A stretch of 64,000 nt of DNA from an uncultured Granulosicoccaceae bacterium (GTDB lineage Bacteria; Pseudomonadota; Gammaproteobacteria; Granulosicoccales; Granulosicoccaceae): assembly GCA_937920585.1 (NCBI GenBank), contig CAKZSB010000149.1, positions 1 through 64,000 of the forward strand. Direction: 5' to 3'. Of the stretch, positions 783 to 3,306 are shown one piece after another (positions within the stretch are counted from its first letter, which is position 1; every line of letters starts with the position of its first letter). Made by a program: the position numbers and the translations under genes. Below the pieces are notes generated by a model, which saw only the letters and a program-made list of their open reading frames with translations, was not told the origin of the DNA and did no database searches.

Positions 783-1892
783 CTATTGATCATGATGTCT
801 GAACGCGTTTATTCCGAGCGACTCTCTGAGCTCTTCAGTGGCAAGTTCCGCTCGCCCCAGGCCAATGCCGGTTGCATTGGCAATTCGAACCATGCGCTGG
901 AAATTTGATGCGATCGCGGCGGCGTCAATCATTTGCGCCTCGTTAACCACTTTGAGCAACTGTTCGCGCGCACGCGCAACGCCATTCGCCTCTCGGGCGA
1001 CAATCGCCTCGGCAAACGCCACCAGTTCCCGGCCGTTGACAATACCGCTGTCGACGCCACCTTCCATCACCGCATTCAAATCAACCGTTTCACTATGACT
1101 TTCGCTGCTCGCACGGAGCATCTGGGCATGAGAACTGGTTCAGTAGTAACAGGCGTTCAACGCTGATGTGCGACCTGCCACTAACTCCATCTGGGTTCTG
1201 CTTAGTGATCTACCGCCGTTATAACCGTGTTTGCGCACATCTTCCATCGCCAGGTAGTGCGCGCCCGATAGCTCTTTGAGCGTGCGCACTTCGGCCGGCA
1301 CCAGGCTCAGTGCTCGCACTACGTTACCTGTGTTGTTCGCGACCCACAGATCGGCCTCGGGGGTATTGCTGTTATCTTCATCGACCATCGGCACCCAGGC
1401 GTCATCCACACCTGCGGTGGCGGGCCGATACTGATCCGGCTCACCGACGCCGGGCTGCGGCAGGGCGCGCTCTGTTATACCCAGTGCGATCGCAAAGCTG
1501 TCGATGCTGACAATTGACACCACGGTGCCAACGAGCTCGATGTATTGCCCCTCACTGATGCCGCGCTCGAGCAAACCTTCATACCAGCTGCGGCTCAGAC
1601 GAGAAGAGTCTGTGGTGATTCGGTGAATGGCCTCGACCGCGGCATCGGGGAGTGACGACACAGCCTGATGCTCACCTTTGACAGCATTGGGCGACAAGGC
1701 CTCGGCACAGGCGCGGCAGTGCCCGCAATGCCAGGCGGCGCGAACCTCACGTGCGATATCAATGCGCTGCGCACTGTTCCACCAGCTACCAGGCTGCTGC
1801 AGCCTGGCCCAGTAACGATTGTGAGCCGCCGGCAAATCTGCGCGGATCGGCCAGCCTGCATCGCGATAATCGATTGTGGATGATGTCTCCAT
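783..1892 (-). CDS. AhpD-type alkylhydroperoxidase-related selenoprotein (in-frame UGA = Sec)
   Basis: One 369-residue protein interrupted by TGA at 1142-1140. The frame before the TGA ends in NACYY and the same frame after it continues TSSHAQMLRAS, giving N-A-C-Y-Y-[TGA]-T-S-S-H. This lines up with the AhpD/carboxymuconolactone decarboxylase core motif NxCxYC...H, so TGA falls exactly on the second redox cysteine. The part after the TGA carries the rest of an AhpD helical domain (LVAFAEAIVAREANG, NFQRMVRIANATGIG). The N-terminal half has a separate Cys-rich element (WHCGHCRAC). A SECIS-like hairpin lies 19 nt after the TGA. Start ATG at 1892 has AGAGG upstream. It is the last gene of a leftward operon, 15 nt behind the phosphoribosyltransferase. 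From memory this family is known as an alkylhydroperoxidase-related (seleno)protein; peroxide or thiol redox chemistry is inferred. The alternative is a nonsense mutation giving a 250-residue truncated product. Confidence 0.85.
1106..1142 (-). promoter_or_regulatory. Sec UGA codon plus SECIS-like hairpin
   Basis: TGA is at 1142-1140. Downstream on the same strand TGCTC (1120-1116), loop CGTGC (1115-1111) and GAGCA (1110-1106) form a 5-bp stem with a small loop containing G-U. The loop G-U sits 28-29 nt from the first base of TGA, within the range I recall for bacterial SECIS elements and close to that in E. coli fdhF. No longer lower stem was found by eye. Confidence 0.65.
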
Positions 1893-1907
1893 CTAACCTC
1901 TACCCCT

Positions 1908-2558
1908 TCAGCTGATTTGCTGACGTTGCGGGAAAGCCAGTTCGGGCCGGTAGTGCTCGAAGCTGTCCAGCGTTTGTCGATTGGCCTGCTGTTGCCAGCT
2001 GCTGCCCGGCACAACCGCTGAGGTACAGGTATATTTCTGCCGGTACTCATGTGTTCGGGCATTTTCCTCGAACACGATCGCGCAAAGCCCTGCCACCACG
2101 CCCTGCTGCCGCTCGACCAGCCTGATTGCCCCGTCCATCGTGCCGCCGGTCTCGACCCACTGATCGACCAGCAGCACCTGCGTGCCAGGGGCAAACGCGG
2201 GTGTGCGCATTTCCATATCCTGGGTGCGACCGGAATAGTTGGTAAACGACACGGCATCGGTGGCGACGCAAAGTTTGCCGGCTTTGCGAATCGGCAAAAA
2301 GCCGCGCCCGATACGTGCACCAATCGCAGCACCCAGAACAAATCCCATCGCATCCAGCCCGGCTACCACGTCGATCCGGGTCGGGTCGAGCTCGGCACAG
2401 AGATCGTCGAGCAAGTCACTGAACGCCTCGCCGTTGATATAGATTGAGGTGGGATCAAGCCAGGCGAACTCCGCCCCGCGCGTGTTCGGCGCCATCAGCG
2501 GCAAGTACCAGCGATCGTCTCGCGGACCAATGTCTGCAGGTCTGCTGGATTCAGCCAT
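1908..2558 (-). CDS. APRT-like phosphoribosyltransferase
   Basis: A type I phosphoribosyltransferase of about 216 residues. It has the APRT-like block GLDAMGFVLGAAIGARIG...GFLPIRKAGKL and a PRPP-binding loop VLLVDQWVETGGTM. In canonical APRT the loop begins VDD; here the second acidic residue is Gln, so substrate or activity may differ. I chose ATG 2558 because GGAG lies six bases upstream; ATG 2570 and GTG 2576 are also in frame. The gene overlaps the end of the BtpA-like gene by 8 nt and is followed after 15 nt by the selenoprotein gene, so the three are probably co-transcribed. A bona fide Apt is encoded at 53.3 kb, which suggests this one has a specialised base or a salvage role tied to its operon. 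Confidence 0.8.
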   Translation of the reverse strand: MAESSRPADIGPRDDRWYLPLMAPNTRGAEFAWLDPTSIYINGEAFSDLLDDLCAELDPTRIDVVAGLDAMGFVLGAAIGARIGRGFLPIRKAGKLCVATDAVSFTNYSGRTQDMEMRTPAFAPGTQVLLVDQWVETGGTMDGAIRLVERQQGVVAGLCAIVFEENARTHEYRQKYTCTSAVVPGSSWQQQANRQTLDSFEHYRPELAFPQRQQIS

Positions 2559-3306
2559 TTTTTGCTCCATAGTCACAGCAGGTTTGTATCAGGGTTCGAA
2601 GTCTGGAGGCGTCGATATTGTAGAAGTCGTCGGCCTGGTTGATCCCGGTGGCGACCAGAAACGCATCCACAAACGGGGCGTACAGCTCAGCGTTGTCAGG
2701 GGTAATTCCGGAGGCCACCGCGATCGCAGACTCTGCACAGGCATGGCGAAACATTTCGATCTTGCCGATCTCTGCCGCGTTGCCGGTTGCCACGCCAGAG
2801 GTGGTCACAACGTCCATCCAGTGACTTGCAATGCTGGCTGCGGTGGCATAGTCACCAGGGTCCACCACACGCTGCTTCTTGAACGCCGTACCGCCAAAGT
2901 AAAGCCCGTTCCATTGATAGTCCCGGCGACGCTGATCCGCCAGCTTTGCCTCAGGCTGGTCGTGCGTTGCCCGGTTCTCGTCGATCCGCGCATCGTCTGC
3001 CCAATAGCCATCGATAACAACACCATCGCGCTGCAACTGGTTGATCGTCGGCAGCGCCTCGGCCAGCGGGACTGCGAGAAAATTCACGCCCAGCCAGAGC
3101 GAAGGCCAGGCTTGCCGCACATCGCGGATGATTGGCAGAAACGGCTCGACCGGGAAATCATGGTTGATCAAAAAAACACCGTGCGCCCCGCAGGCTATCG
3201 CCCGCGCTACATTGCGGCGCGCCTGCGCTTCGTCGAGCACGTGTATAACTGGCAGCACCGCGGGACCTACGCTGCGAAAAGCCTTGTGAAAATCGTGTTT
3301 GTTCAT
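2551..3306 (-). CDS. BtpA-like TIM-barrel protein
   Basis: 251 residues. The C-terminal half (VTTSGVATG, then AVASGITPDNAELY, then DAFLVATGI) resembles the TIM-barrel phosphate-binding end of BtpA/SgcQ-family proteins. The N-terminal half has alternating beta/alpha pattern (LPVIHVLD, GAHGVFLINHD, LWLGVNFLAV). BtpA was first linked to photosystem I assembly, but most bacterial members have no proven role and many sit beside sugar or nucleoside genes. Here it is the first gene of the operon with a phosphoribosyltransferase and the AhpD selenoprotein, divergent from a polyamine-type importer. A ribose- or nucleobase-related reaction is plausible but unproven. Confidence 0.6.
   Translation of the reverse strand: MNKHDFHKAFRSVGPAVLPVIHVLDEAQARRNVARAIACGAHGVFLINHDFPVEPFLPIIRDVRQAWPSLWLGVNFLAVPLAEALPTINQLQRDGVVIDGYWADDARIDENRATHDQPEAKLADQRRRDYQWNGLYFGGTAFKKQRVVDPGDYATAASIASHWMDVVTTSGVATGNAAEIGKIEMFRHACAESAIAVASGITPDNAELYAPFVDAFLVATGINQADDFYNIDASRLRTLIQTCCDYGAKNG

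Follow-up and report, generated by a model that had tools for sequence, protein, structure and literature searches.

A selenoprotein gene of the AhpD-related family NF041238 and its predicted two-domain architecture in an uncultured Granulosicoccaceae bacterium

In AhpD, the reactive thiol is the second cysteine of a CxxC motif and is activated by a Glu/His relay. Several described groups of proteins lie close to the gene analysed here (papers are given by PMC number). A 2005 survey of the Sargasso Sea described 'hypothetical protein 1', which has a CxxU motif and a predicted SECIS element, and counted Cys homologues of it (PMC1088965). The NCBIfam family NF041238 (AhpD_rel_CFYUT) bears the name 'alkylhydroperoxidase-related (seleno)protein' and is tabulated among selenoproteins in a 2026 review (PMC13188914). 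AhpD-like 1 (COG2128) and AhpD-like 2 (PF02627), from marine metagenomes, likewise have CxxU in an AhpD/CMD domain and are tabulated as separate families (PMC2398784). Two AhpD-type domains in one chain occur in Sestrin2 and in bacterial fused AhpD dimers (PMC4674687, PMC11429811), and such bacterial fusions have been discussed as forerunners of the Sestrins (PMC11429811).

The gene lies in a 64-kb stretch of DNA, which we refer to as the window. Its minus-strand frame runs from the ATG at 1892 to the TAG at 783 and encodes 369 residues, with the TGA at 1142–1140 as the sole interruption (Table 1). This TGA separates an open reading frame of 250 amino acids (1140–1892) from 783–1139, which continues in the same frame; an ORF finder begins the downstream piece at the ATG at 1121 (112 amino acids, 783–1121). 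An earlier note, made from the letters of the window, had proposed that the two frames are joined through this TGA and that gene callers would split them. Our reading of the frame agrees; gene prediction would stop the product after residue 250.

Table 1 Features of the selenoprotein locus in the window
Feature	Position	Strand	Details
Selenoprotein gene, family NF041238	783..1892	-	Sec at 251, stop TAG 785-783; single in-frame TGA
UGA codon, predicted Sec251, second redox residue of C248-Y-Y-U251...H255	1140..1142	-	TGA in homologues
Spacer with AGAGG Shine–Dalgarno-like stretch before ATG 1892-1890	1893..1907	-	from sequence
bSECIS hairpin	1105..1121	-	5-bp stem UGCUC/GAGCA, 1120-1116 with 1110-1106; loop CGUGC 1115-1111
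N-terminal half, residues 1-178, degenerate AhpD-type domain	1359..1892	-	C56xxC59, H75, H90; independent AhpD fold match
C-terminal half, residues 179-369, AhpD/CMD catalytic domain	786..1358	-	E236, C248, U251, H255; PF02627

By itself a TGA junction is weak evidence, because the window contains 78 pairs of frames (each at least some 60 codons long) that are joined in this way; judged by reading, none of the others in the 64 kb resembled a known selenoprotein site. The junction at 1142–1140 stands above chance because the family match spans the TGA from end to end: the read-through protein scores 456.6 bits against NF041238 (equivalog cut-off 175), over profile positions 1–356 of 357. It also matches PF02627, the CMD domain (28.4 bits, cut-off 23), and TIGR00778 (29.1 bits, cut-off 27.8), and scores 48.2 bits against TIGR01926, below the cut-off of 81.8. 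Neither half alone, when split at the TGA, has a Pfam match. PF02627 is matched solely by the read-through protein, and the earlier note's reading of NACYY-TGA-TSSH as the AhpD motif with UGA at the second redox position corresponds to the C248-Y-Y-U251-T-S-S-H255 that we see. The C-[FY]-Y-U-T motif of NF041238 is present with its in-frame UGA as CYYUT, in place of the CFYUT of the family name, and nothing places the protein outside the family. With 'hypothetical protein 1' it shares the same end-to-end match, CxxU with Sec second and a downstream SECIS-like hairpin. We are nearly certain that this is a genuine selenoprotein gene of NF041238, a family that corresponds to the 'hypothetical protein 1' described in 2005.

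Homologues were collected by using the family alignment to scan the species genomes of GTDB and taking the best 80 of 107 loci. Two search patterns were used, neither of which favoured Sec and one of which demanded Cys at that codon; a query of the genome contigs with the single protein had given no match, and the alignment query then succeeded. The site is TGA in all 91 homologues (about 81 of them distinct, from several phyla; the GTDB part being the best 80 of 107 loci), which fills the Cys/Sec column to which the earlier note had pointed with the Sec codon throughout. A Cys codon occurs there in none of the 91 (again with the best 80 of 107 GTDB loci). By comparison, the 2005 survey had Cys homologues of 'hypothetical protein 1' (PMC1088965), whereas none is found among the relatives and the best 80 of 107 loci here; Cys counterparts are abundant in many selenoprotein families, according to a table in PMC2398784. 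One short AhpD match within which a TGA had been noted (L031) was ruled out, its active site being an ordinary CxxC.

Among Granulosicoccaceae relatives there are nine full-length homologues besides the gene and a paralogue in its own genome, each with one TGA in the matched stretch. In a wider sample of the phylum, the own genome is the sole carrier among 399, so the gene is sporadic. Relatives of the gene were sought in viral contigs and in plasmids, and none was found there. The paralogue (L049, 1246–2340 in gene orientation, contig C253) is a second NF041238 selenoprotein, 38–39% identical, with the same UGA and hairpin. Paired members of the family recur in other genomes (for example, L107/L126 and L119/L129), in separate clades of the tree.

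Downstream of the UGA, the earlier note had described a 5-bp hairpin starting 19 nt past the TGA, and a stem and loop are located there (Table 1), with 19 nt between the TGA and the 5-bp stem. Some of the conservation at the nucleotide level reflects coding, since the protein is conserved 3′ of the UGA. A free fold of 48 nt does not choose the hairpin as its minimum-energy structure and does no better than shuffles; we therefore used comparative and synonymous-codon tests as evidence. These covered 81 distinct sequences (the GTDB part being the best 80 of 107 loci) under a six-pair model. Across them, 96.3% of cells are paired, and 20 cells are changed on both sides, including 19 changes from C-G to A-U at the sixth pair. 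That pair is C-G in 44 of the 81 sequences and A-U in 19; it is present in 66 of the 81 (best 80 of 107 GTDB loci), and in the window its positions, 1121 and 1105, are A and G and unpaired. The covariation score was reached by none of 500 shuffles, which leave relatedness in, and all slid registers were worse. Codon choice points the same way: Leu at +8 is CTC in 81/81 sequences (28% background) and Arg at +9 is CGC in 0/81 (41% background). Compared with synonymous recodings, the hairpin ranks in the top 5% for stability in 72 of the 81 sequences, the window's own at 1.7%. From these sequence comparisons, the hairpin is conserved beyond coding constraint.

Against the bSECIS model of PMC13188914, the window hairpin agrees in loop size, stem length, a G in the first two loop positions and a 24-nt spacing. 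At -5.7 kcal/mol it misses the model's limit of -7.5, which is a limit for computational searches and not a biological definition; the family core hairpin has a mean of -6.3 and a best value of -8.0. A subset of bSECIS elements fails the model, according to that review (PMC13188914). An Rfam scan of the window gave no match at gathering thresholds. Three homologues (L103, L104 and L109) have the SECIS loop AGGUU or AGUUU, with the stem kept and with AGG or AGT replacing the codon CGT.

The own genome (5.34 Mb, 489 contigs, 91.6% complete) contains all four of the genes selA, selB, selD and tRNA-Sec that the earlier note had named. The tRNA-Sec has a UCA anticodon (71.8 bits); selA (580.1 bits) and selB (400.9 bits) lie about 1.4 kb apart on contig C311; and selD scores 245.2 bits. 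A 716-amino-acid protein of this genome (L018, 355–2505 on contig C265) has SelD as its C-terminal part, with CAGC (Cys, not Sec). Its N-terminal part is an NADH-dehydrogenase-like domain, as named from its sequence and from the Ndh–SelD fusions described in PMC2398784. In the Granulosicoccaceae, tRNA-Sec was found in seven of the eight genomes that carry the full-length gene (the eighth is 84% complete) versus 11 of 28 without it. Outside that group, 35 of the 40 homologue-bearing genomes tested have tRNA-Sec (loci being the best 80 of 107), and three of the five without a tRNA-Sec match have selB. Two genomes (G474 and G489, those of L075 and L090) have, besides a full-length SelB, a second, shorter SelB-like match below the cut-off, in a frame of about 400 amino acids, which may be ordinary EF-Tu that the SelB model also matches.

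We propose that the ribosome would read the UGA at 1142–1140 as Sec, Sec-tRNA(Sec) being brought by SelB, which would bind the hairpin 24 nt downstream; judged by sequence, Sec would thus be inserted at position 251. Two other readings of the codon can be set against this. The gene might be disrupted, with the TGA as a true nonsense mutation or the frame after it as a decaying remnant, and a frame broken by a TGA at which gene callers stop after residue 250 is what such a gene would look like; yet the same TGA is shared by every one of the homologues across several phyla (best 80 of 107 GTDB loci) and the protein is conserved on both sides of it, and we give this reading next to no weight. The identity of residue 251 is a sequence-based prediction, which leaves some room for read-through by a near-cognate tRNA, or a reassigned code, that would place Trp, Cys or another residue there. 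We consider this highly improbable: the Sec machinery is complete in the own genome, the hairpin is conserved and the codon falls at the redox position within the AhpD motif.

The product that we predict on the selenoprotein reading is a fused double AhpD-domain protein of 369 residues with an E236...C248-Y-Y-U251...H255 active site in its C-terminal domain. By analogy with AhpD, the residue that reacts should be Sec251, with C248 as the resolving one. The Sec251 selenolate would attack a hydroperoxide (or another small oxidised substrate of that kind), a selenenylsulfide would form between Sec251 and C248, and a partner would then reduce it again; the substrate and the reductant in this scheme are what we infer. 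Peroxidase-type chemistry is moderately probable on the strength of the family. The selenoprotein might instead be a thiol/selenol reductase or a dehalogenase with the AhpD fold, comparable to the debrominase Bmp8; this alternative concerns the reaction alone and leaves the Sec reading intact. Enzymes of this fold serve diverse functions, the fold matches include Bmp8 (6ohi, 6ohj), and neighbouring genes vary among genomes and indicate no pathway; the nearest sequence and fold matches, however, are AhpD-type antioxidant proteins, most of them themselves uncharacterised, and we regard a non-peroxidase function as rather unlikely.

In an alignment of 72 sequences, E236, C248, Y250, Sec251 and H255 are invariant, and an AlphaFold model built from that alignment has a pLDDT of 95.3. 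The best matches of the full model in the PDB are AhpD-type proteins of half its length. When the N-terminal half is modelled alone, AhpD proteins are again the top matches (probability about 1.0, TM about 0.5). A profile alignment places the two halves in colinear register, pairing helix 114–137 with helix 318–341 (E 0.0011), and pairs the C56xxC59 region with C248xxU251 weakly (0.19). Because each half matches AhpD folds and the half-to-half alignment is colinear, the protein is most likely, as modelled, a fused AhpD dimer with a double AhpD domain in one chain. The earlier call of an AhpD-type selenoprotein is thus supported in every testable respect, for a family that is not itself new: it is upheld by the match to NF041238, by the Sec machinery of the genome and by the conservation of the UGA and the hairpin, although in place of a single AhpD the protein models as a fused two-domain one. 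We found no statement of a fused double-AhpD architecture for NF041238 in the available parts of the literature.

AhpD/peroxidase-related proteins (TIGR01926; PDB 6k40, 2prr and 3c1l) have the fold of the C-terminal domain and the Glu...CxxC/U...His site in common with it, but are single-unit Cys proteins of about 190 residues, whereas the protein here is two-half with Sec. AhpD-like 1 and 2 are set apart by their tabulation (PMC2398784); the protein here has about 370 residues and two AhpD-type halves. Sestrin2 (5t0n, 5dj4) is aligned over the whole model by Foldseek (probability 0.85–0.99, E 0.03–0.3, TM about 0.45), with an rmsd of about 13; the large rmsd and weak E over the full length mean that domain packing differs or is uncertain. 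Sestrins have their catalytic Cys in the N-terminal domain and a DDYDY-type acidic hinge in the C-terminal domain (PMC11429811). The Sec site here is in the C-terminal domain and the translation contains no DDYDY, and we therefore rejected Sestrin membership, although two AhpD-type domains are present.

The N-terminal half has its own pattern of conservation. C56, C59, H75 and H90 each occur in 71 of the 72 aligned sequences; one homologue (L134, 5001–6047) has lost all four together with R98 and keeps the UGA site. In this half the relay His has given way to another residue, most often Lys (A63 in the protein here), and no residue corresponds to the catalytic Glu at the equivalent spacing. 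Since the four residues are near-invariant and are lost together in one homologue, the sequences suggest that C56xxC59...H75...H90 is a second site, perhaps metal-binding; no description of this set was found in the accessible literature on the family. On the same grounds, we tentatively entertain a broader view of NF041238, possible at best, as a predominantly or obligately Sec-using fused AhpD pseudo-dimer of Sestrin-like architecture, in which the ancestral CxxC hairpin of the N-terminal domain has become either a metal site (C56, C59, H75 and H90) or a dithiol that partners the CxxU centre in the C-terminal domain.

Upstream on the same strand lie a phosphoribosyltransferase gene (PF00156, 1908–2576) and, overlapping it, a gene for a BtpA-like protein (2551–3306; a weak match, below the Pfam cut-off). 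Co-transcription of this pair (1908–3306), 15 bp away, with the selenoprotein gene is possible. A conserved operon was rejected: phosphoribosyltransferase, BtpA-like and transporter genes occur beside no other homologue, with a positive control run. Gene neighbours differ even between close relatives, and because they are not conserved we infer no pathway from them. At the left edge, the window has a tandem array (1–203; 7.5 copies of a 27-bp unit, 96% match) that runs off the edge and reads on the minus strand as a Gly/Asp/Ala-rich repeat, possibly of a secreted or surface protein.

At this locus the apparent stop is a coding codon, and automatic annotation truncates the gene (783–1892). The two-domain AhpD reading offers a testable structure for a family named by resemblance alone and, if the metal-site or dithiol view of the N-terminal half is true, there would be an undescribed division of labour between two domains of one chain. 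The occurrence of Sec with no Cys replacement in about 81 distinct sequences from several phyla (best 80 of 107 GTDB loci) hints that selenium chemistry is needed at this site.
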